Of a DNA stretch of 64,000 bases, positions 25,739-45,876 are shown piece by piece. The translations under genes were made by a program, and so were the position numbers. How positions within the stretch are numbered: position 1 is the first letter of the stretch; each line of letters opens with the position of its first letter. Origin of the DNA: Vulcanimicrobiota bacterium (GTDB lineage Bacteria > Vulcanimicrobiota > Vulcanimicrobiia > Vulcanimicrobiales > Vulcanimicrobiaceae); NCBI GenBank assembly GCA_003151115.1, contig PLWS01000002.1, positions 1 to 64,000 on the forward strand, written 5' to 3'. The notes beneath the pieces were generated by a model, which did no database searches, was not told the DNA's origin, and saw only the letters and a list, made by a program, of their open reading frames with translations.

Positions 25739-26621
25739 GCGAGCTCTCGTCCCGGCGATTGTCATCGCGGCGCTGGCAACGAGCGCCTGCGCCACCCCCT
25801 CGTTTCCGGCGCCTTCCGCTTCGCCGACCAGCGGGAGCGACATCACGCGTCCCGGCGACGGCGTGCGTTTGGGCTCCGGCTGGTACGCACCCGAGAACTA
25901 TGCAAACGTCACGTTTCGCTGGGCCAGCCGCGACGCGGAGATAACGGCCTGTCCCGACGTCAACAGCCGGGCGCTGCTGCTGCTGCTGGAGCGTGGGCCG
26001 AGCCTCGGCATGAGAATCCTGACGCTGAAGATTCGCGGCAATCACGGCGACAGCGAAACGGCCACGGTCAAACCCGGAGAGTACGTCAAGATTCCCGTCA
26101 ATCAGAACGCGCTCGCCGAAACATTCGTGCTGAACGCCGCCGGCCGCAATCGCGCGGTGCCGCACGACAAACGCATTCTCAACTTTCGCGCAATGAGCAT
26201 CATTTTAGGATCCTCGGCCGGTAACTGCAAGAACGAGATCGTCTTCGACGCTTCACCGCTGGCGCTGGGCGCGAATTGGTATCCATATGAAACGTACGCC
26301 GGTCAGAGCTTTCGCTGGGTCGCCAACGACGCGCAGGTCAAACTGACGGCCGCGCAGCGGCGCCCGTGGATCATGGAAGCGGAAGTCGAACCGGGACCGA
26401 GCTTGGGCGGCGCGCCGCTGCAGATCAGCGTTCGCGACGCAAGCGGCAAATCGATTGCGCAGAGCTCGCCCGTTCGCGGTCGCGCCTACGTCGAGTTTCA
26501 CCTTCCGGCCCAGCCCGCGGGAACGGTGCTGACGCTGTCGCTGCAAAGCCGTAATGCGAAAGCGCAGAATGAGCGGCGAACGTTGAACTTCCGCGTCTTC
26601 GGCCTAAAAATTAAGCCCTAG
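25731..26621 (+). CDS. FRW-domain lipoprotein, copy C
   Basis: This 296-residue protein has a lipoprotein signal (LATSACATP near residue 20) and two FRW-type domains. The first has LGSGWYAPENYANVTFRWAS and RILNFRAM, and the second LGANWYPYETYAGQSFRWVA and RTLNFRVF. Segments LERGPSLG and VEPGPSLG correspond to the LEPGP motif of the cytosolic copies. It shows that the same fold is used both inside the cell and in the envelope. The 3' end overlaps the convergent NHL gene by 18 bases. Confidence 0.75.
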   Translation: MVKRALVPAIVIAALATSACATPSFPAPSASPTSGSDITRPGDGVRLGSGWYAPENYANVTFRWASRDAEITACPDVNSRALLLLLERGPSLGMRILTLKIRGNHGDSETATVKPGEYVKIPVNQNALAETFVLNAAGRNRAVPHDKRILNFRAMSIILGSSAGNCKNEIVFDASPLALGANWYPYETYAGQSFRWVANDAQVKLTAAQRRPWIMEAEVEPGPSLGGAPLQISVRDASGKSIAQSSPVRGRAYVEFHLPAQPAGTVLTLSLQSRNAKAQNERRTLNFRVFGLKIKP

Positions 26622-30091: not shown

Positions 30092-31884
30092 TGGTTTCCG
30101 AGGCCGGCCGCAAGTAGACCTTGCGCGATGTGATCGCCGAAGAACGCGTTCCCGCGAGAATTGGGATGCTGGCTCGTCGGCAGATACAAGGGCGTCGCGC
30201 CGATGCTCAACTCGTACTTCATGATGTCGTCGTACATGTCGTAGTGCAATATGGGCGTTCCCCGCAGCAGGCCCGCGAGCTCCGTGAAGTCTTCGTGGAA
30301 GTACGTGCCCGGCGGCGCCCGAAAAAAGGGAAAGCCTTGCACGATCCACTCGGAGTCCGACGTGTCCTGGGCATTGTAGATCCACAGCAAGGCAAGGCGC
30401 GTGCGCAGCGGTTTCAGCACGGCCAGCGGCTGCTGCATGTGGGCTCGGAACGTGGGCCCGAACGCCGCCCTCGCTTCCTTCGCTGCCGGCAGAGCTGAAG
30501 CGTATGCTTCGGCGTCCATAATTACCAAGTCCATGCGCTCGTACGGAAAGATTTTTTTAATGTAATCTTCGAAGTTGCCGACTTTGCCGGCATCGATCCT
30601 GATCGTGTGGCAACGTACCGGCTTGCGGAAACGGTGCGAACGGTTCAGCGTCGCTTCGATGTGTGCGCAGATCGAATCGTCGCCCAGAGTGTCCCAGAAC
30701 GACCAGGACGCGCCGATCAAGGCAACTTCGTAATGCTTGGTGTCGACATGATTGGCCGGATCGAAGCCTGCTTCGGAAACGCGCGAGGCCGGCAAAACGA
30801 TTTGGCGGATGCGGCGATTCCCGCCGTCCGCAACGACGGCCGAGTTGCCCACGACGGCGATACCCATCGGATCGTAAAAACGGGAATCCATGGGCGTGCC
30901 GTTCGCAAAGCCCGCGTTGTCGGATCCCCGCTCGTAGCGCCCGCCGGCGATCACGCGCGTGAAGACGCTGCCGTTGAACGGCAGCTTCTGCAGCCGCAGA
31001 TAGCGGATGTTCGCTGTAATTAAGTCGGTAAAGAGAAACTGTTGCGCATCGATCGCCGCGAGTTGGTTCGGATGGCCGAACGGATTGCCGTCGGAGAGCT
31101 TGTCCGGATACATGATCGTATCCCGCCCCGTCAAGGGATAGTATGCAAAAACGTCGGTATAGGTTGAAACCACGATAACGGGATCCGCTCCACCGGCGAC
31201 CGCCACGCCGATCGCGCTGATCGCCTCGCCCTGCGGCAAGCTGTGCTCTTCGGCAAAATGGTCGGTCGTCAGAACGCCGTTCGCCCACCGCCGCAACCCG
31301 CCGCCGTTATCCGCGATGTAGAGATCTCCGGCGGCATCGAACGCCAATGCGCTCGGATGGATCAGGCTTGCCGTTTCGATCGGCCCATCGACGACAAACG
31401 CCGGATTCCAGCGGTAGGGCTGCGGATTTTGGCCGCACTTCCCGACAACGGTCGTCACTTGCCCCAGCAGTAACTTGCGGATGCAGCCGTTGTTTGAATC
31501 GGCAATGTAGAGCGCGCCGTCGGGCCCGATTGCCAAACCTTCGGGTCCGTTGAATTGCGCCTGCAAAGCTGCTCCGTCGCGATAACCCGGCGTCACGAAG
31601 ATGCCGGGCGGCACGATCGCTCCCGATCCGGCTACTGTCCTAACCTCGCCGGAGCGCGTCAGCAAGCGGATGCGCTGCGCGGCGCGATCGGAGATGTAGA
31701 TCGAACCGTCGCGCGCGATAGCGATGCCCGACGGGAATAAGAACGTAGCCTTGTGCGCAGGCCCGTCCGCGATGCCGGGTGCGCCGCTGCCCGCGATCGT
31801 CGTGACTTCGGGCGGCGCAGTGGCGCGCGCAGCTCCGGCGCAGAGAATGCACGCACAGAAAAACAGGAGGGATTTACTCAGCAC
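30088..31884 (-). CDS. Secreted NHL-repeat protein with SGNH-like domain, copy 3
   Basis: This 598-residue protein starts at GTG 31884 with a signal peptide (LLFFCACILCAGAARA). It has the same two-domain plan: NHL blades such as FPSGIAIARDGSIYISD and GPEGLAIGPDGALYIAD, then an SGNH-like domain with ALIGASWSFWDTLGDDSIC and TSQHPNSRGNAFFGDH. The Ser and His candidates are kept, but the Asp three residues before the His found in copy 2 is Thr here. It is the first gene of the tandem array and diverges from a broken small gene and the FAAL gene. Confidence 0.75.
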   Translation of the reverse strand: MLSKSLLFFCACILCAGAARATAPPEVTTIAGSGAPGIADGPAHKATFLFPSGIAIARDGSIYISDRAAQRIRLLTRSGEVRTVAGSGAIVPPGIFVTPGYRDGAALQAQFNGPEGLAIGPDGALYIADSNNGCIRKLLLGQVTTVVGKCGQNPQPYRWNPAFVVDGPIETASLIHPSALAFDAAGDLYIADNGGGLRRWANGVLTTDHFAEEHSLPQGEAISAIGVAVAGGADPVIVVSTYTDVFAYYPLTGRDTIMYPDKLSDGNPFGHPNQLAAIDAQQFLFTDLITANIRYLRLQKLPFNGSVFTRVIAGGRYERGSDNAGFANGTPMDSRFYDPMGIAVVGNSAVVADGGNRRIRQIVLPASRVSEAGFDPANHVDTKHYEVALIGASWSFWDTLGDDSICAHIEATLNRSHRFRKPVRCHTIRIDAGKVGNFEDYIKKIFPYERMDLVIMDAEAYASALPAAKEARAAFGPTFRAHMQQPLAVLKPLRTRLALLWIYNAQDTSDSEWIVQGFPFFRAPPGTYFHEDFTELAGLLRGTPILHYDMYDDIMKYELSIGATPLYLPTSQHPNSRGNAFFGDHIAQGLLAAGLGNH

Positions 31885-31955
31885 GTTCGATCAAGTCGAC
31901 GCCTTGCAGGAGTCATTGTTCCTACCGCATACCCCACGGGCACTAGGAGAGGATT

Positions 31956-32345
31956 ATGGCAGTAAACACAATCGTTAGCGGTGCGGTAACGCACGACGTA
32001 AACCTCCCATCTAATAGCGGTTTGAATCTCGGCGCATTCCCAGAACGTATCACGGTTTTCCTCCTGACTACGGCAAGCGATACGGAATTAGGGAATGGGG
32101 TGAATGTGTTTGTCGAGGTATAGCCCGACAGCGTAAATTGGTATGCGGCGTGTATTCCGGACGCGCTCCTAACAAATGATGGAAACGGCTCCCTGGATTC
32201 GGCGGGGATGTATCATTTTTTCCATGCCTGCGCGATAAGTTTTGCGATAGCGCCGGCCCCATACATTCGTGTTCGCACCGGGGGCACAAGCACGAGCGGG
32301 GACTTATCAAATCTTATCGCCCAAGTGCAAACCAATCTTGATTAG
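31956..32345 (+). pseudogene. Small gene interrupted by an in-frame TAG
   Basis: ATG 31956 has an excellent ribosome-binding site (AGGAGAGG). The reading MAVNTIVSGAVTHDVNLPSN continues to TAG at 32121-32123 after 55 residues. The same frame then stays open to TAG at 32343-32345 and looks like protein: PDSVNWYAACIPDALLTND, then YHFFHACAISFAIAPAPY, ending LIAQVQTNLD. A single base change (for example CAG or GAG to TAG) would explain the break. A short 55-residue product, a pseudogene, or amber suppression are the alternatives. No family was recognised. Confidence 0.55.
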
Positions 32346-32463
32346 GATAGATTAAGCTTTAGAGCTCCCCCGAGGCACGAATAACCGGGATTTGGATGTC
32401 CGCTTCCCGCATGATAGAGTCGTGGCAACACATCCACGCCTCATAGCCGAAAATGAATTTCAC

Positions 32464-34134
32464 ATGCCCGTGACGATTTCATCTCGGCTGTTGCAGAACG
32501 CAACAGAACAGCCCGCTTCTCCGTTTTGCTCGTTCATTAAGGACAAACGATGCGAGAGAATATCATTCGCGCAACTCTTGGATCGCAGCGCAGCTTACGC
32601 CAATCGTTACCGGAAGATTGGCATCAACCCCGGAGATTTGATCATCGTCATCCTGCAGCATATGCCGCATTTGTTCTACGCTTATCTCGGCGCGATACTT
32701 GCGGGAGGCATTCCGACGTTCATGCCTTTTCCGACGCCAAAGCAGCGGCCTGAGCTCTATTGGGCCGACCACGAGGCATTATTCGACAGGATTAACCCAC
32801 GGCTGCTCGTGACTTATGAGACGAATCTCTTGGATGCGAAACGCGCGCTGCCGCATTTCCGTGTTGATACGCTCATTGCAGATGACGAGATATTCAACGA
32901 GCGAGCCGAACCGCTCGATCTTCTCGCCGGATTCGCTGCCGCCCCCGACTCCGTCGCTTGTCTCCAGCACAGCTCAGGAACCACGAGTTTGAAGAAGGGC
33001 GTGATGCTCACCCATCGGGCGATTCTCGACGAAGTCGAGGCCTATGCCGAAGCGCTCACTTTTGGCCCGGAAGACAGCATCGCCTCGTGGCTGCCCCTCT
33101 ATCATGACATGGGCTTCGTGGCGTGCTTCATGGGTTCGGTTTTACTCGGCACTCATTTGGTTGCGCTCGATCCATTCGAATGGGTGATGCGTCCCTCGAT
33201 TCTCCTGGATGCGATCCAGCAATACCGCACGACATTTTGCTGGCTGCCGAATTTCGCATTCTCGCACATCGCCAATACTGTGCAACCCGACGCATCGTGG
33301 GATCTGTCTTCGATGCGAGCGTTTATCAACTGTTCCGAGCCCTGCAAACCGAAAACGTTTGAGCGTTTCGTTTCTCGATTTGGCGCCGACGGAGTTTCCC
33401 CGCTACAGCTCCACGTCTGTTATGCGATGGCCGAAAACGTCTTTGCCGTCACGCAGACCACGCTGGGCCGGCCGGCACGCATCTTGCACGCCGCTGCCGA
33501 AGCGTTTTCCCGCGGAGTCGTGAAGCCAGCGGCAGCCGGCTCGGCCGCTATCTCCCTGCTTTCGTGTGGCGTGCCTATTGACGGCGTACGCGTGCAGATT
33601 TGCGCGGAGCCGGGCTCGCCGTTGCCGGACGGATGCAGCGGCGAGATTCACCTGACCAGCCCCTTTCTGCTTTCCGGCTATTACAAGTTGCCGGAGAAAA
33701 CCCGCGAAAAGTTACGCGGCGAATGGTATGCGAGTGGAGACATGGGTTTTATTCTGGACGGTGAGTTGTACGTTACCGGCCGAATAGACGACATGCTTAT
33801 CGTTAACGGACAAAATTATTATGCTCATGAACTCGAAGCAATCGTTAACAGCGTCGCATCGGTGATCCCGGGCCGTAGCGTAGCCATAGGCTTGGAGGAG
33901 GAGCGCATGGACGCAACGATCGTTGCGGTGCTAGCCGAGTGTACGCCGCAGGCTGATGTTGCGACGATTGGCCACGCCGTTCGGCGGAAGATTCTCGAGG
34001 AATTGGGCCTGGCTATTCATGCGTTCGTGCCGCTGACGAAGGGTCAGCTAGTCAAGACGACGAGCGGGAAAATAAACCGCGGCAAAAACAAAGAATTGTA
34101 TCTGAGCGGAGGTTTCGAGCAACAAGTTCTGTGA
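32464..34134 (+). CDS. Fatty acyl-AMP ligase (FAAL-like)
   Basis: The 556-residue adenylate-forming enzyme shows the P-loop-like SSGTTSLKKGV (about residue 169), WLPLYHDMGF (about 210), CYAMAEN, TGRIDDMLIVNGQNYYAHE and a C-terminal GKINRGKNKE. WLPLYHDMGF and the NYYAHELE wording favour the fatty-acyl-AMP ligase branch, which loads acyl chains on carrier proteins, over acyl-CoA synthetases. ATG 32464 is chosen; TTG 32392 would add 24 residues of weak composition. An ACP, an MBOAT acyltransferase and an SGNH protein lie just beyond its stop on the other strand, so it probably feeds acyl groups to that ACP. Confidence 0.85.
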   Translation: MPVTISSRLLQNATEQPASPFCSFIKDKRCERISFAQLLDRSAAYANRYRKIGINPGDLIIVILQHMPHLFYAYLGAILAGGIPTFMPFPTPKQRPELYWADHEALFDRINPRLLVTYETNLLDAKRALPHFRVDTLIADDEIFNERAEPLDLLAGFAAAPDSVACLQHSSGTTSLKKGVMLTHRAILDEVEAYAEALTFGPEDSIASWLPLYHDMGFVACFMGSVLLGTHLVALDPFEWVMRPSILLDAIQQYRTTFCWLPNFAFSHIANTVQPDASWDLSSMRAFINCSEPCKPKTFERFVSRFGADGVSPLQLHVCYAMAENVFAVTQTTLGRPARILHAAAEAFSRGVVKPAAAGSAAISLLSCGVPIDGVRVQICAEPGSPLPDGCSGEIHLTSPFLLSGYYKLPEKTREKLRGEWYASGDMGFILDGELYVTGRIDDMLIVNGQNYYAHELEAIVNSVASVIPGRSVAIGLEEERMDATIVAVLAECTPQADVATIGHAVRRKILEELGLAIHAFVPLTKGQLVKTTSGKINRGKNKELYLSGGFEQQVL

Positions 34135-34156
34135 GCGCGGCCGTGATCGAACGTCG

Positions 34157-35566
34157 TCAGAACGCTCTGTACACGACATGCGGAGCCGGCGCGTTCAACG
34201 CGACTGCAACGGAAACCGTAATGACGGCCAGCGCCGTGTACCAGGCAGCTCGCAGCGGCTGGACGTTCAACCTTTCGACCCATCCCAGACTCTTCAACGC
34301 CGATAGAACGAAGACCGCAGCGATGAGCGTTCCAAGGATCGCCAAAATGATTGCGGGCGTTCCCAGTAGCGCCGCGAAACCGCCGAGCTGCTGCCAGTTC
34401 GACCAAAACCAGAGCATCGTAATGCAGAACCATGTGAAATTCATCGCGCGGGCTAGCGCCGCATAGGCCGGCTGCGCGCCCAAATCGCGGTAGCCCACGC
34501 GACCGAGTCTTTGGGTCATGACGAATTCGTACCACTTGTTCACGCTGATTCCCAGGCCTGTCAACAGACCGAAGAACAGAAACTTCGCGCTTTGTCCGTG
34601 CCATGCGCCGACCAAGAAGAACGTTACGAAGTACGCGAAGACGCCGAGATATGCTTGCGTTTTCGCTGCCGGGAAGCGCCGCATCGAACTGAGCAATAGC
34701 GGCAAGTACACGTACGTCTTCAACCAATTAGACAGCGTCATGTGCCAGCGGGTCCAGAAATCGATCACGCCGCCCGCCAAAAAGGGCTTGTTGAAATTCT
34801 CCGGTAGCTGCAGTCCCAAAAACCCCGCGACGCCGATCACGAAATCCGTGTAGCCGGCGAAGTTGAAATAGAGATAGATAGGAAAGAGCGCCAACGCTAC
34901 GCCGGCATCGACGACGCGATCACTGAAGGTCAGCTGCGTCCCTAAGAGCGCGATGCATTGCTGCTGCGCGTACAACAGAACCGGTGAGAGGACGCTCACC
35001 TTGAAGAAGCCCGCGACGATCCGGCTCGCAGCTTTCCCAGCCAGCTCGACGTTAAGCCGCAACGGCTCCTCGGTTTCCGTCCGGCGATAATCTTGATAGA
35101 GCTGAATTGGTCCTGAAATCAAGCACGTAAAATTCAGCGTATAGCTCGCGTACGCGGCGATGCTCAGTCGCTCGGGCAACGCATCGTGATAGGCATCGAT
35201 CACCAAATGCAAGATTCTGAAGAACACGTACGACATGCCGATCGTCAGGTAGGTGAAAGGCAAGTAAAGATAGTGGGGAACGAATGCATATCTCTTGAGC
35301 CAAAAGAACGCGAACAGCAGTCCCACGACAAGCGGAATGAAGGCCGCCCGGCTGCGGTATGATTCCATCGCTTTCATGCTGACGAATCCGAATGCCAGCA
35401 ATACTGCAAAGGGCGCGAGCTGTTTCGGATCGTGCGTGAAGCTGAGCACTAAGGCAACATTTGCGAGGACCAAGATCGCGCGCCGCCACCCCGGTGCGTT
35501 GGAAACGTGGATGAGCAGCGCAATCGCGGCGGCAAATGCCAGAAACTCAAACGAGGGTGCGTTCAA
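34157..35566 (-). CDS. MBOAT-family O-acyltransferase (AlgI/DltB-like)
   Basis: The 469-residue polytopic membrane protein carries the MBOAT motifs FWTRWHMTLSNWL (about residues 270-282) and GAWHGQS with the catalytic His near residue 323. It should move an acyl group from a cytoplasmic carrier to a polymer outside the membrane, as AlgI and DltB do. The start is TTG 35566, which overlaps the stop of the ACP gene in TTGA. Readings further upstream are the ACP in another frame. It is the last gene of the ten-gene operon and converges on the FAAL gene with 22 bases between the stops. Confidence 0.87.
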   Translation of the reverse strand: MNAPSFEFLAFAAAIALLIHVSNAPGWRRAILVLANVALVLSFTHDPKQLAPFAVLLAFGFVSMKAMESYRSRAAFIPLVVGLLFAFFWLKRYAFVPHYLYLPFTYLTIGMSYVFFRILHLVIDAYHDALPERLSIAAYASYTLNFTCLISGPIQLYQDYRRTETEEPLRLNVELAGKAASRIVAGFFKVSVLSPVLLYAQQQCIALLGTQLTFSDRVVDAGVALALFPIYLYFNFAGYTDFVIGVAGFLGLQLPENFNKPFLAGGVIDFWTRWHMTLSNWLKTYVYLPLLLSSMRRFPAAKTQAYLGVFAYFVTFFLVGAWHGQSAKFLFFGLLTGLGISVNKWYEFVMTQRLGRVGYRDLGAQPAYAALARAMNFTWFCITMLWFWSNWQQLGGFAALLGTPAIILAILGTLIAAVFVLSALKSLGWVERLNVQPLRAAWYTALAVITVSVAVALNAPAPHVVYRAF

Positions 35567-35808
35567 GGCCGCTTCGCAATCTTGGCCTCGATCAATTCGG
35601 CCAGCTCTCCGAGATTCTTGAACGAAGAGATCTGCGACGGTGCGAATTCGACGCCAAACGCTCTCTCCACAGCGAATATCAGGCGTGCATGCGCCAAACT
35701 GTCCCACCCCACAACTTGATCCTCGGTGAGATCCGGGCGCGCGACCAAACTGTCGTCTTCAAAAACGTCGCACAGCAGCTCGGTAAGCCTGTTGTACACG
35801 TGATTCAT
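35563..35808 (-). CDS. Acyl carrier protein
   Basis: This 81-residue acidic protein has the phosphopantetheine attachment motif VGWDSLAH with the carrier Ser at residue 37. It has an ACP-like helix pattern before and after it (AVERAFGVEFAPSQISSF). The ATG at 35808 has AAGGAG at a suitable distance. Its place between an SGNH protein and an MBOAT acyltransferase, with a FAAL nearby, matches the position of DltC in dlt operons and suggests that it holds the acyl group to be transferred. Confidence 0.88.
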   Translation of the reverse strand: MNHVYNRLTELLCDVFEDDSLVARPDLTEDQVVGWDSLAHARLIFAVERAFGVEFAPSQISSFKNLGELAELIEAKIAKRP

Positions 35809-35818
35809 CAATGGCTCC

Positions 35819-36724
35819 TTACCGATTCAACGCGGGCGCGAGCAGGGCCGCTAAGCGCCGCTGCCCCGCCGCCGTCAGGTGATCGTTATCGAAGAATTCA
35901 TTCGCAGGATAGGCGGCGTCGAGGTCGAGCACAACGACGCCTTGCCTCTCCAGCAGTCGCTGCAAGTACGCGCCGTTCGCGCGATACTCCGGCGTGTCGA
36001 TATATTCGTGCAGGAGCGTGTGGTTGGTCGGGGTCATAAAAGCTACGGCCGGAATGCGGGCGGCGCGCAGCTCCGCTGCCGTTTTCTGCAGGAAGTACAC
36101 GCCTGCGTTCCGAGCGTTCAGCGGCGTAGCATCGTAGGCTCCTTCGAAGAGCGCTGCGGACGGATGGCGCGGCTCCGGCGCGCTTGAATCGCCTAGCAGC
36201 GTTTCACGGATATCTGCGCGCATCGCGTACACGAGCCAGATCGAAGCCAGCGCGCGCCCGAACCGCTCGCCGATTGCCGAATGTTTTTGGGGTGCCGTCA
36301 GCTCGGCAAGCGCCGGCTGCAGCCTCTGATAGGCAGGATCGCTTTGACTGAATACTTTCTGGTTGACCTGCATGACGACAATCTTCGGTCGAACTCCCGC
36401 AGCCAGCAGCAAGCGTACGAGCGCGTAGTAATTGGGCGGGCTGCCGCCTTCGAACGCCAGGTTGCGGCAGACGCAACCACGCGACGCCAATTCCGAAACC
36501 GCGGTTTGGCTCGGCTGCAATTGGTATCCCCAAACCACCGAATCGCCCAGAAAGATAGTGGGCGGCGGGCCTTGCGCCATCAATTGCAATTCGCGCTGCA
36601 GATATGCGGGCGAGAAATCGGTCGTTAGTCGCGGAAGTTGCGTGAAATAACGGACGACGAGAATGTTTTCCAGTAAGACGATCGCTACGATGACCGCAAC
36701 CGAGCTCGCGATGGCGCTCTTCAC
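35819..36724 (-). CDS. Membrane-anchored SGNH hydrolase-like protein (DltD-like role)
   Basis: The 301-residue protein starts with a membrane anchor (AVIVAIVLLENILVV). It has SGNH block I IFLGDSVVWG with the nucleophile Ser62, then NLAFEGGSPPNYYA, and block V DNDH with Asp279 and His282. The catalytic domain is expected outside the membrane. In dlt operons an SGNH-fold DltD completes D-alanyl transfer, and in alginate acetylation AlgJ and AlgX play similar parts. The GTG start at 36724 overlaps the upstream stop. A role as acyl transferase or editing esterase is inferred. Confidence 0.82.
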   Translation of the reverse strand: MKSAIASSVAVIVAIVLLENILVVRYFTQLPRLTTDFSPAYLQRELQLMAQGPPPTIFLGDSVVWGYQLQPSQTAVSELASRGCVCRNLAFEGGSPPNYYALVRLLLAAGVRPKIVVMQVNQKVFSQSDPAYQRLQPALAELTAPQKHSAIGERFGRALASIWLVYAMRADIRETLLGDSSAPEPRHPSAALFEGAYDATPLNARNAGVYFLQKTAAELRAARIPAVAFMTPTNHTLLHEYIDTPEYRANGAYLQRLLERQGVVVLDLDAAYPANEFFDNDHLTAAGQRRLAALLAPALNR

Positions 36725-39700
36725 CGCGCGTCACCGCCCGGTTCGAAACCGATCTCCTGCAATTTCGCCCAGACTAAACGCACGTCGGAGGGCAAGATGT
36801 TTCCGACCGCTGCAGCCTGGACCGTTACCGTGTGATCCCCCGGCGGCGCTCCGAGCACATTTACGTCGACATATGTGCTCGGCTTCACGCTGAAGCGGCT
36901 GGAGAGCCGCCCGTCGATCTTTACGGTAACGATTTGCTTCATGCTGGACGGCGGAACGGTCAGGCGAATCCGAAGTCCCTCAGCCTCGTCCCTCGAATGC
37001 AATCGCACGGAGAATTTGCGCCCCACCCAGCCGTCTTCGAAAATTCCGGAGTAGATCAGATCCGGATTTACGAGATCGCCCGGGAAGCTGTCGATCCGCA
37101 CGGGCGCCGGCCGCAGCGGTCCGGCGATGCTGATGTCTCTTCCGAAGAGTGCGAACTGGCGAGGATCGCGGTCGATATCGCGCCCATAAAGATTCATGAG
37201 CCAACTGCGATGGGTAGCGAACTTTACGAGCCTATTGCCGAAGTACAGAATCACGTATCGCCGGCCGAACGCGGTGAAGGGACGAATGGGCGGCGTGATG
37301 ATCCTGGCCGAGCCCGCTCCGGGGCTCGGAATCTTCAGCCGCGATGCCCCCATGATCACAATCGGCGGAATCTCGGTATACGGCACCGGATTGTACGACG
37401 CCGTGATCACCAGCTTGAGGCGGATCGTCGGCGTCCCGTTGATGACTTCCAAGAGCATCGATCTGCCGAGCGTTGCCATGAAGGGGGGCGAAGAGAGCGG
37501 ATCTGGTTCGACATTTCCTACCGCCGCCGTGTAGGTATCGACAAGCAGCGTGGCCGGCGTTCCAAAATCCGATTCCGCGAGCGACAGCCAATTGTGCACG
37601 GTGTTCCAGGGAACGACCCGCACCATAAACGGCGTCTTCGTCTGTGACCGGTTGAGCAGCGAGAGCTGCGGCCCGATCTCCAAGAAGAGTCCGTTGGTGC
37701 GATCGAATGGTAGCGCCGGTGGCACGAAAACCCTTTCATTTCTCGAATAGAGATAAAAGCGCGTGAAGGGCGTGCTGGGAACGTACGGAGTCATGCGCGG
37801 GCCCTCTTCGAGCATCGGCATGGACCACGTGAACCTTTGCCTATTGCCGAGAACCGCCCGGTCCGTTGAGAACAGCAGATAGATTGACGTAACGCCCGGC
37901 GGGATCGTGAGGCTTATCGAAACGCGGCCCGGTTTTCTTCCATGATAGAGGCCGCTGATGAGATTTTCGGTTTGCAGGCTGTCGGCATTATTGATGTAGA
38001 TGCGGCTGTTATAACTGCTCGAGATCCCGCTCGGATCGATCCACACGGATGCCGTGACCGTCTCCCCCGGTCTGACGCTGATCGGGTCACTGATGACGCC
38101 GACATCGACGGAAAGGCCGTCACCCGTGGCCTGCCAACCGCCATGAGCGTCCGGTCCAACCTCATGGACATGCTCGTCATCGACGCTTCCCCTGTGAAGG
38201 GGATCCCATTTGCTCCACCCGGAGGCAAAGTCGTCGGAGTCGGGAGCGATGTTGCGCGTCGGAATTGCGGAGGGACTGTCCGCCGCGGTGAACTCGATGT
38301 GGTTCATCGCGCTGGGCAACGACAGCATCTTTTGCTCAAAAACTAGCGTTCGCTGGTTTGCGGTTCTCCTCACGAAGTCGCGCAAGCCGGCCGGCCAGCC
38401 GACGATCTCCTTGACGATTCCACCGGTGTTTCCGAAGAAGAACTGTGGGAACGGATCGGCACCCTCGAATTGGAGCGGATGGCCACGCAGCGCCACACCT
38501 GCAAGCAGATCGATCTGCCAGACCATCGCGTCCATGCGAATCGGGCGATCGATCTGGTTTGCATAGCGGCGCGCTATCGCATCCAGCGTTCCGTAAAGAT
38601 CTTCGTGCGAAGCTCCGTTGATCTCGGTGAATTCGGCCCGCGTATGCATAAGGAAGTCCGAGGTCGATGCCAGATAGATGTAGGTCGAATAGGCGGTCGC
38701 AGCCAGGCAGAGCGTCACGAGGCCGGCCCTTGCGAAAACCGGCGGCGTTCGCAGAATCCGGGCCAAGCGGTCGGCGGCCCACAGGATCACGAGCGCGACC
38801 GCGGACGCTAAGAACGGCTGTGCCCAAAAACCGAGCTTGAATGCGGCATAGCCGGAGCGCTGGATGACGAGCACGACCAAGGCTATCTGAATTGCCAAGA
38901 GCATACCATCCGAAAACTTTGCGCCGCGAAGGAGCGAGCGTGCTGCGACGACCCCAATCGCAAAAAACCCGAGGAAGCCGGCGACGATCGCGATGGACAG
39001 CCAAGGCTCGGGATCATTCGCAAACGGCAGGAGCCCCCAGAGATTGGCAGCGCCGGACGGAATGACATACCAGGTGATTATTCCCGGTCCCGACTGCACC
39101 GACGCTCTGACGATGGTCAGCAAGACTTTCATCGTGGCGGCAAACGTAAAGAACTGAATGTTTTGGAGCAGCAGCACCGTGGCGACGACAATTCCAGCGG
39201 CGGATGCAATGCGCTTTGCAAAAGCGGCGATCTCCGAGCGATGGTACCACAGCGTGACGGGAGCCGTGATCGCCGCGGCCGCGAGGAGCAATGGCGTTAT
39301 CTCGGGATAGATGAGCGAAAGACCCGCCATGCAGCATCCGAGTGCGACCGAACGCTGCAGGAGCCCGGAACCGCCGGCGAGCTGAACGGCAGCCACGATG
39401 CCGACGACACAGACTTGGCCTAGCAGCTGCGGCAGTATTTGCTGGTAGACCGAAAAGAGCATCAGCGGAGAGGCAACTGCGATCAGGATCGTCGCTATGA
39501 CCATGCGCCGCTCCATCTGCGGATTGGCGCAGAGTGCGCCGGTCCCCATGACCAGCATCAGAAATGCGGCAACTGAGAGCGGCATATAGATTTCGTACGT
39601 GCGTACATGCACGGCAGCTGCGACCAGCGCCAGCAGCGCGTCGGTTCCGAAGCGGTTGGGCGGCGCCACTTCCCAGAACCACAAGTTTCGGGGTACGTCC

Positions 39701-40152
39701 GTGCCCCCAATCAGCTCGCGCAGCGGAGCAACGTCGAAGAAACCATGATGCAAGAAGTTGTCAGCCGTCGATATATAGACCGACATGTCGCCGTTGCTGT
39801 TGCCGGCCCAGTGAAAACCGAAGAGCAGCAGTGGCGCGCCGGCCAGCAAACCACCGCCGACGTAGGCGGGAATCAGCGGGAGCAGCTTACTCCAGGGAAC
39901 TGCGGGACGCCGGATCGCAAGAATGATGCCTGAAATGAGTGCAAGACCGAGCAGCAGCCATTGGCCAAACGCTTCGACGGGCAACCCCGCGCGGTTGAAG
40001 CTCAGCTCGATCGGCAAGGCCACACCCATGCCGATCGTCGGCGAAAGCAACAGGATCCCTAAGGAGATCCGTCGGCCGAAGAGCGTCACCACTCCGAGCC
40101 CAACGAGTCCCAGAAACAGCACGATGGCGAAGGCGAAAAGCAGCGCGATCAT
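36721..40152 (-). CDS. Large polytopic membrane protein with extracytoplasmic beta domains (GT-C-like)
   Basis: The 1143-residue protein starts at ATG 40152 in an ATGA overlap with the epimerase gene. Its first about 590 residues contain at least twelve hydrophobic helices with a long first loop (HWAGNSNGDMSVYISTADNF), the layout of GT-C type glycosyltransferases or polymer-processing membrane proteins. The remainder is soluble. It has a jelly-roll-like domain around residues 690-840 (SVRPGETVTASVWIDPSG, TIPPGVTSIYLLFS) and a further beta-rich end (VKIDGRLSSRFSV). No catalytic Asp pair is certain. A role in transferring a sugar outside the membrane is an inference. Confidence 0.65.
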   Translation of the reverse strand: MIALLFAFAIVLFLGLVGLGVVTLFGRRISLGILLLSPTIGMGVALPIELSFNRAGLPVEAFGQWLLLGLALISGIILAIRRPAVPWSKLLPLIPAYVGGGLLAGAPLLLFGFHWAGNSNGDMSVYISTADNFLHHGFFDVAPLRELIGGTDVPRNLWFWEVAPPNRFGTDALLALVAAAVHVRTYEIYMPLSVAAFLMLVMGTGALCANPQMERRMVIATILIAVASPLMLFSVYQQILPQLLGQVCVVGIVAAVQLAGGSGLLQRSVALGCCMAGLSLIYPEITPLLLAAAAITAPVTLWYHRSEIAAFAKRIASAAGIVVATVLLLQNIQFFTFAATMKVLLTIVRASVQSGPGIITWYVIPSGAANLWGLLPFANDPEPWLSIAIVAGFLGFFAIGVVAARSLLRGAKFSDGMLLAIQIALVVLVIQRSGYAAFKLGFWAQPFLASAVALVILWAADRLARILRTPPVFARAGLVTLCLAATAYSTYIYLASTSDFLMHTRAEFTEINGASHEDLYGTLDAIARRYANQIDRPIRMDAMVWQIDLLAGVALRGHPLQFEGADPFPQFFFGNTGGIVKEIVGWPAGLRDFVRRTANQRTLVFEQKMLSLPSAMNHIEFTAADSPSAIPTRNIAPDSDDFASGWSKWDPLHRGSVDDEHVHEVGPDAHGGWQATGDGLSVDVGVISDPISVRPGETVTASVWIDPSGISSSYNSRIYINNADSLQTENLISGLYHGRKPGRVSISLTIPPGVTSIYLLFSTDRAVLGNRQRFTWSMPMLEEGPRMTPYVPSTPFTRFYLYSRNERVFVPPALPFDRTNGLFLEIGPQLSLLNRSQTKTPFMVRVVPWNTVHNWLSLAESDFGTPATLLVDTYTAAVGNVEPDPLSSPPFMATLGRSMLLEVINGTPTIRLKLVITASYNPVPYTEIPPIVIMGASRLKIPSPGAGSARIITPPIRPFTAFGRRYVILYFGNRLVKFATHRSWLMNLYGRDIDRDPRQFALFGRDISIAGPLRPAPVRIDSFPGDLVNPDLIYSGIFEDGWVGRKFSVRLHSRDEAEGLRIRLTVPPSSMKQIVTVKIDGRLSSRFSVKPSTYVDVNVLGAPPGDHTVTVQAAAVGNILPSDVRLVWAKLQEIGFEPGGDAR

Positions 40153-41237
40153 TTTTTGAGCAGCAGACGGATTGCTTTTTGCGTCGCGCCGAATTGCAGC
40201 GGGGCTTTTTTGCCCCGGATTTTTAGCCGCAGCGACGGCGATCGCAGCAAGGCTCCCGCGATCCGAATGATTCCGCGGGGATTCGTTCCCGTCAAAAAAT
40301 TCTTGCCCGCGTCGACCAGGCGCGTCCATTCGGTTTCGTCGCGCAGCACCAGGCAGGGACGGTTCACGACGGCGGCCTCTTCCTGCACGCCCCCGGAGTC
40401 GCTCATAACGAAGAGCGAATTTTTCAACAGAGCCAGGAAGTCGAGATTGCCGATCGGTTCCAATCTGTGCACGCCCTGCGCCAATCGTATCCGATGCTTT
40501 TGCAGCATCGCCACGGTTCGGGGATGGATGGGGAAGAGCACCGGCACCATCTCCGAGACTTCGTTGATGCCCGCCACGATCTGCGAGAGGCGGGCTCGGT
40601 CGTCCGTGCTCTCGGCCCTATGGAGGGTTGCGAGAACGAAAGCTTCGGGCCGCACGCCGAATTTGCGCAGCTGACGCTCCCTCACCAATCGCATCGCCCG
40701 GCGGGTCGCGTCCAGGCCCGTGTTTCCTATGCAATGCACGCGCTTGCGATCGATGCCTTCGTGCCGCAGATGCGCCACAGCTTGCCGGTCCGGCGCCAGC
40801 AGCAAGGCGGCGAGGTGATCGACGAGGATGCGATTCTGTTCCTCGGGCGCATCGCGATTGAAGGAACGGCAGCCGGACTCAAAGTGGACGATGGGCACGT
40901 TCAACTTCGCTGCGACGAGTGCGCCGGCGAGCGTCGAATTCGTATCGCCGAGAACCGCCACCCAATCCGGTCGGACTTTCGACAGGATCGGTTCCAGGCG
41001 CTCGAGCATGCGGCCGAGTTGGACGCCGGGGCCGATACCGGCCGACCCGACGTTCAGAAAGTATGCGGGCTGCCGCAGTTTCAGCTCGCGAAAAAATATC
41101 CGGTCCATGTTCTCGTCATAGTGCTGACCCGTGTGAACGAGCACGTGTTCAAAGCGCGCATCGAAGAGCGGCAGTACCGGTGAGAACTTGATGATCTCGG
41201 GCCGGGTTCCCAAAACGGTCAAGATCGTTTGCTTCAT
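40149..41237 (-). CDS. UDP-HexNAc 2-epimerase (WecB/WbpI type)
   Basis: The 362-residue enzyme begins with TVLGTRPEIIKFSPVLP. It has HTGQHYDENM, VLGDTNST, HFESGCRSF, and SDSGGVQEEA near the C-terminus, all family motifs of non-hydrolysing UDP-N-acetylglucosamine 2-epimerases. Because the neighbours encode WbpB-, WbpE- and WbpD-like enzymes, the likely substrate is UDP-2,3-diacetamido-2,3-dideoxy-glucuronate (WbpI reaction) rather than UDP-GlcNAc. ATG 41237 overlaps the GT2 stop in ATGA; a TTG at 41243 is less likely. Confidence 0.87.
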   Translation of the reverse strand: MKQTILTVLGTRPEIIKFSPVLPLFDARFEHVLVHTGQHYDENMDRIFFRELKLRQPAYFLNVGSAGIGPGVQLGRMLERLEPILSKVRPDWVAVLGDTNSTLAGALVAAKLNVPIVHFESGCRSFNRDAPEEQNRILVDHLAALLLAPDRQAVAHLRHEGIDRKRVHCIGNTGLDATRRAMRLVRERQLRKFGVRPEAFVLATLHRAESTDDRARLSQIVAGINEVSEMVPVLFPIHPRTVAMLQKHRIRLAQGVHRLEPIGNLDFLALLKNSLFVMSDSGGVQEEAAVVNRPCLVLRDETEWTRLVDAGKNFLTGTNPRGIIRIAGALLRSPSLRLKIRGKKAPLQFGATQKAIRLLLKK

Positions 41238-41956
41238 ACGCAAAACGAACGAGGACGCAGTATCAATCGCGTCATCAAGCGCAGATGGCCGGCGATGACC
41301 GTGGCGATGCGCAGCTTCGACTGTCCAAAGCGGCGAACGGAAAGTTCCGCCGGCACTTCAGCGACGCGCCGACGCTGTTTGATCGCCCGGAGCATCATAT
41401 CGGCGACGGCGGTGAAGCCGGAATCGGGCGATGCGATGTGCTCGTACACATCGCGGCGATAGACGCGCACCATCGCTGTATACGTGTGGATGTTCGCACC
41501 CAGGATGAGGCGGTAAAGACCGCCCGCGGCGCGGCTGAGAAAAAGCCGGTACGCCGGCACTCCGACGACACGGCCGTCCGGATGATAGGGCGAAACCGTA
41601 ACGAGGTCGGCTCCATTCTCCATAAACGTCAGGAGCGGCTCGAGAATCGCCGGATCGTAGGTGCAGTCACTGTCGAGGTTCGCGATCCACTCGCCGCTTG
41701 ATTCGCGTACTCCGGTTCGGATCGCGCCGCCGAGATTGCGGTTTTGCGGATGGCGAATGATGCGCGTAGCCGGGCGATCGCCGAAGGCTTCACTCAGCCG
41801 CTCGAAAGTCGCATCGGTGCTGCCGTCATCGATCAGCACGAGCTCGACCGCATGGCGCGCCGCGATCCGATCGAGCACCGGAAGCAGCTTGTTCCGAAGC
41901 TGTTCGACGCCCTCGGCCTCGTTGTATGCTGGCACCACGACGCTCACGTTTGCCAT
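41234..41956 (-). CDS. Family 2 glycosyltransferase (dolichol-phosphate-mannose-synthase-like)
   Basis: The 240-residue GT-A enzyme has VSVVVPAYNEAEGV at the start, LIDDGSTDAT, and the metal-binding segment ANLDSDCTYDP. No membrane helix is evident apart from the weakly hydrophobic C-terminus. It resembles polyprenyl-phosphate sugar transferases of the DPM1 group. It may make a lipid-linked sugar donor for the large membrane protein encoded two genes downstream. The donor sugar is unknown. Confidence 0.82.
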   Translation of the reverse strand: MANVSVVVPAYNEAEGVEQLRNKLLPVLDRIAARHAVELVLIDDGSTDATFERLSEAFGDRPATRIIRHPQNRNLGGAIRTGVRESSGEWIANLDSDCTYDPAILEPLLTFMENGADLVTVSPYHPDGRVVGVPAYRLFLSRAAGGLYRLILGANIHTYTAMVRVYRRDVYEHIASPDSGFTAVADMMLRAIKQRRRVAEVPAELSVRRFGQSKLRIATVIAGHLRLMTRLILRPRSFCV

Positions 41957-42528
41957 CAGCTTTCATTGTTGCGCAACGGATGATCGCTCGGGATCTCGCC
42001 GCAACGCGGGCAACGCCGCGACGTGACCCGATCGCCGCACGCGCAAACCCAGCCGATCAGCCGCGCCGGCGATCCTGCGGCCAAAGCATAGTCGGGAACG
42101 TCATGCCGCACGACCGAACCCGCGCCGATCATCGCCCAGCGGCCAATCGTTATGCCGGGAAGAATGGTGGAGTTCGCGCCGATCGCCGCGCCGTCCGCGA
42201 CGGAAATTGACCCGGCTTCCCAATCTTCGTCTCCCAATAGCTTGAATTGCGGGTCGGTGGCACGCGGCCGCATGTCGTTCGCGAAGACCACGTGCGGGCC
42301 GGCGAAGACTCCGCGGCCGAGCCTTGCGCCGCGATAGATGCAGGCATAGTTCTGCAGCTTGCAGTCGTCACCGATCGGCACATCGGCGTCGACGTACACG
42401 CCTTTGCCCAAAATGCAGCGTTCGCCGATGCTCGCACCTTTGCGAACGTGAACGTCGTGCCAAATGCGCGACCCGTCGCCGATCGTGACGCCCTCCTCGA
42501 TCAGCGCGCTTTCGTGCACATAGATCAT
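41956..42528 (-). CDS. WbpD/WlbB-like hexapeptide N-acetyltransferase
   Basis: The 190-residue protein is a left-handed beta-helix acyltransferase (repeats such as IGDGSRIW, IGERCILGKG, LGRGVFAG, IGANSTILPG, IGAGSVVRHDV). It has the FANDMRPRA segment typical of UDP-2-acetamido-3-amino-glucuronate N-acetyltransferases (WbpD/WlbB). The C-terminus carries four cysteines in two CxC/CxxC pairs (WVCACG, CPRCG), a probable zinc ribbon. It overlaps both neighbours by one to four bases. Acetylation of the 3-amino group in the diacetamido uronate pathway is the expected reaction. Confidence 0.87.
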   Translation of the reverse strand: MIYVHESALIEEGVTIGDGSRIWHDVHVRKGASIGERCILGKGVYVDADVPIGDDCKLQNYACIYRGARLGRGVFAGPHVVFANDMRPRATDPQFKLLGDEDWEAGSISVADGAAIGANSTILPGITIGRWAMIGAGSVVRHDVPDYALAAGSPARLIGWVCACGDRVTSRRCPRCGEIPSDHPLRNNES

Positions 42529-43517
42529 GTGGTCGCGCCCAAGCGCAGCTTACTTTCGATCATCTCGGTGGCTTCCAGCGCGATCCGCAGCGACCCAAGC
42601 GCGATTTCGGGATCCGGACACTCGGCGCCGTGCAGCAGACTGACGAATTTCTCGAGCTCGAGGCGTAGTGGTTCGCGGCGAACGACGGGACACTCGAGCA
42701 GCACGCCTTCCTCGTATTGCGTGATGAAATCCTCATAGCTCTCGGTTACCACGAAGTCCCGGCCGGGCGCAAAATGCGTCTGCTGGCGCAGATAGTCGAC
42801 CTGCAGAAAGCCTGCCAAACCAGTAATCGTCATGTCGCGAATCTTGACCGGCGTTACCCAGTTGACCAGCGCGTTTGCGGCGACTCCGCCGGCATCCATC
42901 GTCAAACTCGCGTAATCGATCCGGTCGTTGAATACCGCCATGCCGCCTTGCGCGTCGAGCAGCGTGAGATTGGTTTGCAGCAGGAACGAGATGAGATCGA
43001 TATCATGCACGCCGATGTCGACGATGACGTTCGCGTCCCGCACGCGCGCCGGCCAGGTTCCGACGCGCCGCGTCGTAACCTGTAGCGGCGTGCCGACCAA
43101 GCCGTCCCGGATCAAACCCTGGGCGGCGATGACGGCCGGATTGAAACGCTCGACGTAGCCGACCATCAGCGGGAGGCCGCGGCTGCGGCTGCGTGCGATA
43201 ATCTGGGTTCCTTGTTCGATCGTTTGGGCGATCGGTTTTTCGATGAGCACTCCAATCCCGGCATCGATCAGTTGGAGGGAAATAGGATAATGCAGTGCCG
43301 TGGGCACGCTCACGACGGCACCATCCAACGGATTCTTCAGGAGATCCTCAACCGATAAAAAGGTCCGATAGCCGCGCGATTCGGCGCTCGTGCGCGCCTC
43401 GGGCAGCGGATCGACGACGCCGGCGAAATCAACGCCTTCGATGTTCGCCAGGTTGCGCGCGTGCTGGCGTCCGATGGCGCCGAAGCCGACGACCGCGATC
43501 GCGAGTTTGGCGCTCAT
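42525..43517 (-). CDS. WbpB/WlbA-like Gfo/Idh/MocA oxidoreductase
   Basis: The 330-residue NAD-dependent enzyme starts with AVVGFGAIGRQHARNL (Rossmann motif). It has VLIEKPIAQT, the conserved lysine motif of the family, and VDIGVHDIDL. In combination with the WbpE and WbpD neighbours it should oxidise the 3-hydroxyl of UDP-GlcNAc-uronate to the 3-keto form. The UDP-GlcNAc 6-dehydrogenase (WbpA) needed before this step is not in the window and must be encoded elsewhere. Confidence 0.87.
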   Translation of the reverse strand: MSAKLAIAVVGFGAIGRQHARNLANIEGVDFAGVVDPLPEARTSAESRGYRTFLSVEDLLKNPLDGAVVSVPTALHYPISLQLIDAGIGVLIEKPIAQTIEQGTQIIARSRSRGLPLMVGYVERFNPAVIAAQGLIRDGLVGTPLQVTTRRVGTWPARVRDANVIVDIGVHDIDLISFLLQTNLTLLDAQGGMAVFNDRIDYASLTMDAGGVAANALVNWVTPVKIRDMTITGLAGFLQVDYLRQQTHFAPGRDFVVTESYEDFITQYEEGVLLECPVVRREPLRLELEKFVSLLHGAECPDPEIALGSLRIALEATEMIESKLRLGATT

Positions 43518-44614
43518 GCTCCGACCGCCGACTTGAAAGCCGAGACGACGCGCGCGCGATCGGCTTGCGACAAGTGGGGGTGGACCGGCAGGGAAAGAAC
43601 CTGCGCTGCGATCCGTTCGGCGACCGGGAATTCGCCGGCCCTCTGCGGTCCGCCGAAGAGCGGCTGCAGGTGGAGTGGCTTCCTATAATAGACCCCGCTG
43701 CCGACGCCCTTTTCAGCGAGTGCGGATCGGACTTCATCGCGGCCGCGCCGATTCGGCGTCGCGGCTCTGTCAATCAAGACCGCGTAATGGTGGTACACGT
43801 GTACCGCGTTCCCAGGGGCGCACGGCAGCGTGACGCCGGGAACGCCGGCGAGCTGTTCGTCGTAGAACGCCGCGTTCGCGCGGCGGGCTTGCGTGATCGC
43901 GTTCAAGCGGTTCAGCTGCGCGCGGCCGATTGCCGCCAGCACTTCCGTGAGGCGGTAATTGTAGCCGAGCTCCGCAAACTCGTCGCCAACCTGTCCATGT
44001 TGACGAAAGCGGCGCGCAGAATCCGCGATCGCGTCATCGTTGGTCGCCAGCGCGCCGCCTTCGCCCATGACGAGGTTCTTCGTCGCGTAGAACGAGAAGG
44101 CCGCCGCATCGCACTCGGCGCCCACCGGCTTGCCGTCGCGTTCGGATCCGATCGCCTGGCATGCATCCTCGACGATCGCGATGCCGCGCGAGCGCAACGT
44201 ATCCGCGCCGGCGCAATCGCACGGCAGTCCGAACAGATCGACCGCGATGACCGCCTTGGTTGCCGGCGTTGCGGCCGCTGCATAACTGGCGAGATCGACG
44301 TTGTACGTCCGCGGATCGATGTCGACGAAGCGCACTTTCGCGCGCTGCATCAAGACCGTCGATGCGGTTGCGGCGAACGTGAACGGGGTCGTCAAGACTT
44401 CGTCGCCCTCACCGACGCCAACGGCTTTCAACGCGCAGTGCACGGCGGCGGTTCCCGAATTCACCGCCACGACGTGACGGACGCCCAACAGCTTCGCGAA
44501 TTCGCTCTCGAATGACGCACCGACCGCGCCTTGCGAGAGCTGCCTCGAGCGCAGCACATCGATCGCGGCGGCGATCTCCTCTTCTCCGAGGTTCGGCACA
44601 ATAAGTTCAATCAT
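43514..44614 (-). CDS. WbpE-like sugar aminotransferase
   Basis: The 366-residue PLP enzyme begins at ATG 44614 (MIELIVPNLGEEE), overlapping the flippase stop in TGATG. It has VNSGTAAVHCALKAVGVGEG, EDACQAIGSE and FSFYATKNLVMGEGG with the PLP lysine at K179. It belongs to the DegT/DnrJ/EryC1 family. With WbpB it forms the 3-amino-uronate intermediate. It differs clearly from the PseC-like aminotransferase at 23193-24371, so two distinct amino sugars are probably made by the locus. Confidence 0.87.
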   Translation of the reverse strand: MIELIVPNLGEEEIAAAIDVLRSRQLSQGAVGASFESEFAKLLGVRHVVAVNSGTAAVHCALKAVGVGEGDEVLTTPFTFAATASTVLMQRAKVRFVDIDPRTYNVDLASYAAAATPATKAVIAVDLFGLPCDCAGADTLRSRGIAIVEDACQAIGSERDGKPVGAECDAAAFSFYATKNLVMGEGGALATNDDAIADSARRFRQHGQVGDEFAELGYNYRLTEVLAAIGRAQLNRLNAITQARRANAAFYDEQLAGVPGVTLPCAPGNAVHVYHHYAVLIDRAATPNRRGRDEVRSALAEKGVGSGVYYRKPLHLQPLFGGPQRAGEFPVAERIAAQVLSLPVHPHLSQADRARVVSAFKSAVGA

Positions 44615-45876
44615 CAGCGCACTGCCGGAAATGGCCGGCGCATTCGTCCGTCGAGCAGCAACGCCGTAACCGTCAGGGCGAGTGCGGAGCAATGTCCGGC
44701 GATGAGCACGGAGATTACGTTGTCGATCGAGCCATGATACACCGTGATGGCACCAATCTCCAACAGTTCGATTGCAATCAAAGGAACCACGAAAGCGAAT
44801 CGATGCGTGCCGATCCCGTAGTTCGCAACGATTGTGGTCAGCGCAAGCGCGGTAATCGCCACGCCGTAGCGGAGCATGTAGGGTGTCGCGGCGATCGCTG
44901 CCTTGCCCGCGATCGCTGCGAGAATCAAGGCGGGGACAAACCGGATCAGCGTGAGTTCGATTAGGCAAACGCTCAAGCCGGCGAGGAGCATCATCATGAG
45001 CAGCGGTGCGGTGGTGCGCTTTTGACTGCTCAGTTTCGCCGCTTTCGCGATCAGCACCAAAGGAATGAAGGCGATGCTGAAGATCACGACACGCCCCACG
45101 ATCGATAGGGCGCTGTAGATTCCCGCGGTTGCGGGCGGCAGAAAGTGCCGCACGAGGATGATGTCGGCCCACGACATCGCCGCCAATCCGCCCAGCGCGA
45201 GCGTCGTCCCAATCGATTTTGCCAGTACCCTGCGCATGTCGAGGTGCGCGTGGTTGGCTGAAGCGGTCTTGCGCGCCCATCCCAAACAGAACAGGAATCC
45301 ACCGGCGACGCCGCAGACGTTGCCGAAGATCGCACTGTGCAGGCCGCCCCAAAGGACGATCAACGTAAGCCCAAAGATGAGGTTGCCGCCGGCTTCGCAG
45401 ATCAGCGAAGCTGCAAGGACGCCGAAGCGCTGCTCACCCTGCAAGAGCCCGCGCAGCGAGGCCGCCGCGAAACCGAAAGCGATGACGAGGATCGCGAAGA
45501 ATGCCGGCGCTAGCTCGCGCAGATCCAGATAGTTCTTCAAGAGCGGCGCAAAAGCGCTGCCCACCAGCACGATGCCGCCGCCGGCGATCAGCGCAAGCTT
45601 GATGACCGATCGATTCAACGCGCCGGCGCTCCCGGGATCTCTCCCAATCGATTCGCCGGCCAGCACCGTGACGACAGCTTGCAAAACGTTCGCGGGAACG
45701 CTGCAGATCAGCACGAGCGCGAGCATCGCCGCGAGCGCGCTGTAGGTCTGCAGACCGAGCAACCGGATCGCTCCGAAGTGGAATCCGAAATTGGCAGCAT
45801 TCACGAACGCGGTCGCACCGAACACCAGGGCTGTATGACGAAGCGTTTCGCGATGCTCGCCGGGCGAGCTGTGCAT
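44614..45876 (-). CDS. Wzx-like polysaccharide flippase
   Basis: This 420-residue protein has about twelve hydrophobic helices in pairs (for example TYSALAAMLALVLICSVPANVLQAVVTVLAGE at the N-terminal part, read as separate helices). It has the general build of the MATE/Wzx polysaccharide exporter superfamily. ATG 45876 opens the minus-strand ten-gene operon; a longer frame to 46074 would overlap the divergent gene. It should turn over lipid-linked repeat units to the outer face for polymerisation by an O-antigen-ligase-type protein such as that at 50036-51382. Confidence 0.75.
   Translation of the reverse strand: MHSSPGEHRETLRHTALVFGATAFVNAANFGFHFGAIRLLGLQTYSALAAMLALVLICSVPANVLQAVVTVLAGESIGRDPGSAGALNRSVIKLALIAGGGIVLVGSAFAPLLKNYLDLRELAPAFFAILVIAFGFAAASLRGLLQGEQRFGVLAASLICEAGGNLIFGLTLIVLWGGLHSAIFGNVCGVAGGFLFCLGWARKTASANHAHLDMRRVLAKSIGTTLALGGLAAMSWADIILVRHFLPPATAGIYSALSIVGRVVIFSIAFIPLVLIAKAAKLSSQKRTTAPLLMMMLLAGLSVCLIELTLIRFVPALILAAIAGKAAIAATPYMLRYGVAITALALTTIVANYGIGTHRFAFVVPLIAIELLEIGAITVYHGSIDNVISVLIAGHCSALALTVTALLLDGRMRRPFPAVR

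Follow-up and report, generated by a model that had tools for sequence, protein, structure and literature searches.

What charges the acyl carrier protein (ACP) of a Dlt-like surface-modification cassette once its usual donor enzymes are gone? The question is raised by contig PLWS01000002.1 of assembly GCA_003151115.1, from a bacterium of the phylum Candidatus Eremiobacterota/Vulcanimicrobiota; the whole stretch of 64,000 nucleotides analysed here (positions 1 to 64,000) is called the window. It carries, side by side, genes for a fatty acyl-AMP ligase (FAAL1), a membrane-bound O-acyltransferase (MBOAT) of the DltB kind, an ACP and a membrane-anchored, probably DltD-like SGNH protein (Table 1), which the first-pass annotation of this DNA had read as a Dlt-like acyl-transfer cassette using a FAAL. 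The transfer module stands, while the FAAL loses its place as the defining activating enzyme, being absent from the orthologous loci; its role here is most likely that of a lineage-specific replacement, and not a rule for such cassettes. The explanation favoured, with a probability of roughly 0.55, is that a glyceryl-type Dlt-like cassette has lost its donor enzymes and that FAAL1 has become the replacement loader of its ACP.

All four genes are real and intact, with the boundaries and motifs first assigned to them. In the Pfam search FAAL1 matches the AMP-binding family (5.8e-55), and its top NCBIfam model is 'fatty acyl-AMP ligase' (1.2e-81); the top solved relatives are all FAALs (6ulw, 3kxw, 3pbk and FadD32) and not acyl-CoA synthetases or amino acid ligases, a DIP2-like AMP domain is found at the C-terminus (1e-06), and the region of a putative FAAL-specific insertion, 49 residues between YAMAE and GVPIDG, aligns without large gaps to the solved FAALs in a sequence alignment. 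The activating enzyme is, as originally proposed, of the fatty-acyl-AMP type and not a D-alanine ligase. The MBOAT matches PF03062 (9.9e-20) and the DltB model TIGR04091 (1.3e-52, under that model's equivalog cut-off), DltB is its sole solved relative, and its His323 is invariant across nine orthologues; the ACP matches the PP-binding domain (5.5e-07) and carries the GWDS motif. Pfam matches of the SGNH protein are all sub-threshold; a Foldseek search with a low-confidence model (predicted local distance difference test, pLDDT, 58) returned SGNH hydrolases, with DltD (7dxm) among the top matches at E 5.5e-4, and S62, D279 and H282 are invariant in the three orthologues aligned. Both a MBOAT with a conserved catalytic histidine and a dedicated carrier beside it, features of Dlt systems, are therefore present at the locus. 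The ACP and MBOAT genes share 4 nt (TTGA), the TTG start of the latter overlapping the stop of the former, whereas FAAL1 and the MBOAT gene lie tail to tail with a 22-nt gap, which places FAAL1 outside the cassette operon. The proposed correspondence with the Dlt proteins is supported for the carrier, the MBOAT and the SGNH protein, but the order of action is not an operon order, the FAAL being on the opposite strand.

Relatives of the locus indicate what its usual loader is. A set of 118 related genomes was searched for MBOAT orthologues of 50% identity or more, and nine genomes have one in addition to the genome of the window. At seven of these nine loci a FkbH-domain protein (TIGR01686, 3e-89; HAD-IIIC) lies between the ACP and the MBOAT or a few genes off; a DltA-like ligase takes its place in G015, and the G048 locus sits on a broken contig. 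Close FkbH proteins (at least 65% identity) are confined to the seven genomes with the FkbH cassette. No FAAL adjoins the MBOAT at any orthologous locus, and the FAAL was rejected as a conserved member of the cassette; its consistent absence from homologous loci, which the first-pass annotation had itself listed as evidence that would speak against its proposal, is what was found. In a wider scan, GTDB contigs were searched with the MBOAT alignment and the flanks with profiles; among the 26 top-scoring MBOAT loci (of which L091 and L092 are in the same genomes as G002 and G010), FkbH is found at 22, a DltA-like ligase alone at one and a FAAL at none, and the loci include members of Rhodospirillales, Caulobacteraceae, Pseudomonas, Bradyrhizobium, Sulfitobacter, Omnitrophota and Elusimicrobia. 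The nearest relative, L032, has the same gene order as the window, with identities of 87% for the MBOAT, 82% for the ACP and 76% for the SGNH protein; judged by such comparisons, the three window genes are orthologous to those of the FkbH loci.

The same relative shows what has changed in this genome. The alignment of the window with L032 (about 85% DNA identity) jumps from window position 35571 to 35566, skipping 7491-9351 of L032, and the deletion is clean: the stop codon of the FkbH gene now terminates the ACP gene, which still shares TTGA with the start of the MBOAT gene. Directly after its MBOAT, L032 has a VOC protein of 133 aa (Glyoxalase_4, 1.6e-16; top NCBIfam match methylmalonyl-CoA epimerase, below cut-off). 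This gene too is gone from the window, where the FAAL segment (about 31901-34138) lies between remnants of the first five and the last nine VOC codons. A 20-nt inverted repeat that flanks the FAAL was considered as the ends of a mobile element and rejected, the repeat being the remnants of the two ends of the VOC gene. The donor half of the cassette has been removed here, and the FAAL is now in its place. That the FkbH deletion is an error of assembly or binning, so that a normal FkbH cassette would have a FAAL next to it by chance, is highly improbable: the genome is possibly metagenome-assembled (8 contigs, 98.5% complete), but the junction is clean and within a 972-kb contig, FkbH was not found elsewhere in the assembly by a query that detects it in 27 relatives, and the locus has undergone a second, independent event, the replacement of the VOC gene.

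FAAL1 is sister to a FAAL of G003 (support 0.999), with equal evolutionary rates; in G003, that gene is 25 kb from an intact FkbH cassette. FAAL1 belongs to the same subfamily (up to 73% identity) as the FAALs of FAAL-ACP-WcbI polysaccharide modules of Eremiobacterota. The relatives of FAAL1, like a second copy in the window genome (FAAL2, C6:125480), have their own ACP adjoining, typically with a WcbI gene (PF18588) next, while neither WcbI nor a FAAL-type ACP is found near FAAL1. The FAAL-ACP-WcbI module was also seen repeatedly in polysaccharide clusters of the family (L075-L090), where WcbI may act as the acyltransferase that receives the acyl group once the FAAL has loaded it onto the ACP. 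Four carriers were detected in the window genome, namely AcpP, the carrier of FAAL2, that of an island with a DltA-like ligase, and the cassette ACP; as the first three are accounted for, the cassette ACP is left for FAAL1 by elimination.

The island (C6:114.7-119.9 kb; L171:14689-19901) contains, besides the ligase and its own ACP, an SDR, a NeuD-like and a formyltransferase-like gene, is located near an O-antigen-type cluster, and may be regarded as a second, putative carrier-dependent route of sugar modification. Its ligase (C6:116.4-117.9 kb) shares 54.6% identity with the DltA-like enzyme that adjoins the orthologous cassette in G015, and it could in principle charge the window's cassette ACP in trans, with an amino acid as cargo; however, it lies about 80 kb away among an ACP, an SDR and a formyltransferase-like gene of its own, and because of this distance and this carrier it is a weaker match than the adjacent FAAL, so that charging by the ligase is improbable. 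FAAL1 is most likely the present loader, because FkbH and VOC are gone, FAAL1 is in the place of VOC without an ACP, and the other loaders have their own carriers.

Under this explanation, the cytoplasmic ACP would pass an activated acyl group to the DltB-like MBOAT, which would move it across the membrane to the DltD-like SGNH protein, and the latter would attach it to the probable acceptor, a surface glycan. The ancestral loader would have been a FkbH-like enzyme, often accompanied by an epimerase-like VOC protein, and if it worked like known FkbH proteins it would have supplied glyceryl from 1,3-bisphosphoglycerate, which makes glyceryl the probable ancestral cargo. With the FkbH gene deleted and the VOC gene replaced by a FAAL devoid of a carrier, the orphaned ACP would most likely receive a fatty or a short acyl group from FAAL1, and the swap of the loader would thus have changed the cargo.

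Selection bears on whether the cassette still works. Compared with L032, the ratio of nonsynonymous to synonymous substitution rates (dN/dS) is 0.11 for the MBOAT, 0.19 for the ACP and 0.21 for the SGNH protein, and it is 0.14 for FAAL1 against the FAAL of G003; all four genes remain under purifying selection. A value for the 1202-aa protein was disregarded because of a frame error. It is nevertheless conceivable, if rather unlikely, that the cassette has been decaying since the donor enzymes were lost and that FAAL1 is an unrelated insertion whose partners, in trans, are the carrier and WcbI encoded in the FAAL2 cluster (C6:124-127 kb). The use of an own ACP, and usually of WcbI, by the relatives of FAAL1 fits such decay, as do the convergent orientation of FAAL1, the possibly faster evolution of the window ACP, which may be drifting from cassette constraints, and the absence from the window SGNH protein of about 13 residues (after residue 145) found in two relatives. 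Against decay, the MBOAT, SGNH and ACP frames are intact with conserved catalytic residues and the low dN/dS values given above, the window branch has no surplus of changes in either MBOAT or SGNH, and the ACP/MBOAT overlap has survived the deletion.

Several observations also weigh against the loading of the cassette ACP by FAAL1. The genome has a second FAAL with its own ACP, and FAAL1 could serve that carrier; FAAL1, being convergent, is not co-transcribed with the cassette; and the FkbH loss is possibly recent, the dN/dS values being averages over the whole divergence. No other genome has the same arrangement: a FAAL-ACP-MBOAT adjacency recurs only in G110 (L088:58-3437), where a FAAL and an ACP adjoin a divergent MBOAT at a contig end. 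This is an independent second adjacency in the phylum; it was rejected as a conserved parallel, since it is not conserved in its class. Acceleration of the ACP is only suggestive (7-9 window-specific against 1-2 relative-specific changes; exact tests, p 0.02-0.18) and was judged weak. Two changes in the recognition helix of the ACP looked suggestive prior to a log-odds test of its residues, in which the changes were not biased to those of FAAL ACPs (p=0.50), and the window ACP is still clearly of the cassette type. The only clear convergence is Ser+4 L>A, a position with A/S/T in 14/14 FAAL ACPs and I/V/L in all other cassette ACPs aligned. The best reading of this pattern is that the ACP was released from the FkbH interface; adaptation to the FAAL is not proved by it.

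The recurrent FkbH-ACP-VOC-MBOAT-SGNH cassette, with a loader that varies between lineages, has stronger sequence support than the FAAL claim and is the more interesting lead. Variation of the loader within this family is illustrated by the DltA-like enzyme of G015. VOC homologues adjoin FkbH cassettes in L035, L036, L037, L093, L097, L098, L099, L102, L104 and L149, and they would fit naturally as epimerases working at the alpha carbon of the acyl-ACP. The group that FkbH-type cassettes move to a surface glycan would presumably be glyceryl or a C3 derivative of it. The FkbH cassettes of L034, L036, L037, L033 and L108 contain extra enzymes, namely methyltransferases (TylF-type or other) and a fusion of MaoC with an SDR, a hint that the group bound to the ACP is modified further. 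An ACP-SGNH-MBOAT-FkbH cassette was noted in a class of the phylum that is only distantly related (G116, L173:6446-10948), and AlgX-like SGNH proteins in some cassettes from outside the Eremiobacterota.

On the other side, the SGNH gene shares 4 nt with the next gene, an open reading frame (ORF) of 1202 aa, and upstream lies the operon of the putative acceptor glycan (Table 1). The 2-epimerase, family 2 glycosyltransferase, acetyltransferase, 3-dehydrogenase and DegT aminotransferase coded there fit the synthesis of a 2,3-diacetamido sugar; the true start of the aminotransferase is probably near 44.6 kb, because its domain covers only part of the predicted protein. The cassette had been linked to an operon for a diacetamido-uronate polymer: the overlap of the SGNH gene and the 2,3-diacetamido enzymes fit the link, but the uronate is unsupported, since a whole-genome search returned no UDP-sugar 6-dehydrogenase over the family cut-off, the same search being positive in 13/14 control genomes. 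Beyond FAAL1, at 26604-31884 on the minus strand, three tandem NHL-repeat proteins are coded, whose C-terminal domain resembles the SGNH fold by motif, with no Pfam match there. Homologues flank the MBOAT/SGNH loci in most relatives read, including MBOAT-SGNH pairs without an ACP, and these proteins may be part of the modification system.

Table 1. Cassette genes, deletion scars and neighbouring genes in the window.
Feature	Position	Strand	Basis or remark
Scar of VOC 3′ end (VDLIERAE*), overlaps start of NHL protein gene	31874..31900	-	
FAAL1, fatty acyl-AMP ligase, intact	32464..34134	+	family and solved-structure matches
Scar of VOC 5′ end, start codon lost (ATG -> ACG)	34135..34160	-	comparison with nearest relative
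MBOAT, DltB-like, TTG start, His323 conserved	34157..35566	-	Pfam/NCBIfam and structure relatives
ACP of cassette, FkbH-type, phosphopantetheine Ser37	35563..35808	-	PP-binding domain
Deletion junction, last ACP codons joined to last codons of lost FkbH gene; about 1.86 kb of L032 absent here	35566..35571	-	
SGNH protein, membrane-anchored, DltD-like, S62/D279/H282	35819..36724	-	motif conservation and fold search
Large membrane protein, 1202-aa ORF, no Pfam family, overlaps SGNH gene	36721..40329	-	
Putative acceptor-glycan operon: non-hydrolysing UDP-GlcNAc 2-epimerase (WecB/WbpI type)	40149..41243	-	
Family 2 glycosyltransferase (GT2)	41234..41956	-	
Hexapeptide sugar acetyltransferase, WbpD-like	41956..42528	-	
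UDP-GlcNAc 3-dehydrogenase, Gfo/Idh, WbpB-like	42525..43517	-	
DegT/DnrJ/EryC1 aminotransferase	43514..45352	-	domain = residues 255-606

The FkbH-ACP-VOC-MBOAT-SGNH cassette appears not to be described in the literature searched, where no paper was found that links FkbH to MBOAT, to O-antigen or to polysaccharide, that links FAAL to MBOAT, or that brings MBOAT together with SGNH and ACP. Gellan is an example of an exopolysaccharide with glyceryl groups. Such groups are known chemically on bacterial exopolysaccharides (PMC4432689), no enzyme route to them is named in the literature searched, and a FkbH-loaded carrier with a MBOAT and an SGNH protein would be a direct candidate for it. The differences in loader among close relatives would also indicate that Dlt-like relays are modular, with the loader setting the cargo, and a surface modification could then be predicted, or altered in laboratory strains, from one gene; the comparison suggests that such machines can alter their cargo by swapping a single gene. 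A tentative generalisation, with odds somewhat short of even, is that widespread, undescribed Dlt-like machines of this composition add glyceryl to surface polysaccharides and change cargo by loader exchange alone (FkbH, DltA-like or FAAL), the window capturing one such exchange with its scars still visible.

The cassette resembles several known systems in part. With the Dlt system (DltA-DltB-DltC-DltD), which D-alanylates teichoic acids, it shares the carrier, the DltB-like MBOAT and probably the anchored SGNH protein, which has DltD among its top fold matches; however, its locus has no DltA-like D-alanine ligase, the neighbouring ligase being a FAAL and the ancestral loader FkbH-like, it lies beside a glycan operon and not beside teichoic acid genes, and its MBOAT falls below the DltB equivalog cut-off. 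AlmEFG, responsible for lipid A glycinylation in Vibrio cholerae, similarly puts a DltA/DltC-type ligase and carrier to use on another surface target, but with an LpxL-type acyltransferase in place of MBOAT and SGNH. The FAAL-ACP-WcbI module of Eremiobacterota has the same FAAL subfamily and polysaccharide setting, but its FAAL comes with its own ACP and usually WcbI, both of which FAAL1 lacks. A MBOAT and SGNH relay over the membrane is common to the cassette, to AlgI/AlgJ/AlgX in alginate O-acetylation (PMC4432689) and to PatA/PatB in peptidoglycan O-acetylation; unlike the cassette, neither of these acetylation systems is described as having an ACP and a loader of its own. Finally, FkbH-type glyceryl-ACP synthases act in methoxymalonyl-ACP and tetronate pathways, for example Mad7/Mad14 in tetromadurin (PMC7489565), and the lost loader of the cassette was likewise a FkbH-domain HAD protein beside a stand-alone ACP; in the cassette, however, FkbH is paired with a MBOAT and an SGNH protein and not with a polyketide synthase, and by implication the loaded ACP would serve a surface modification.

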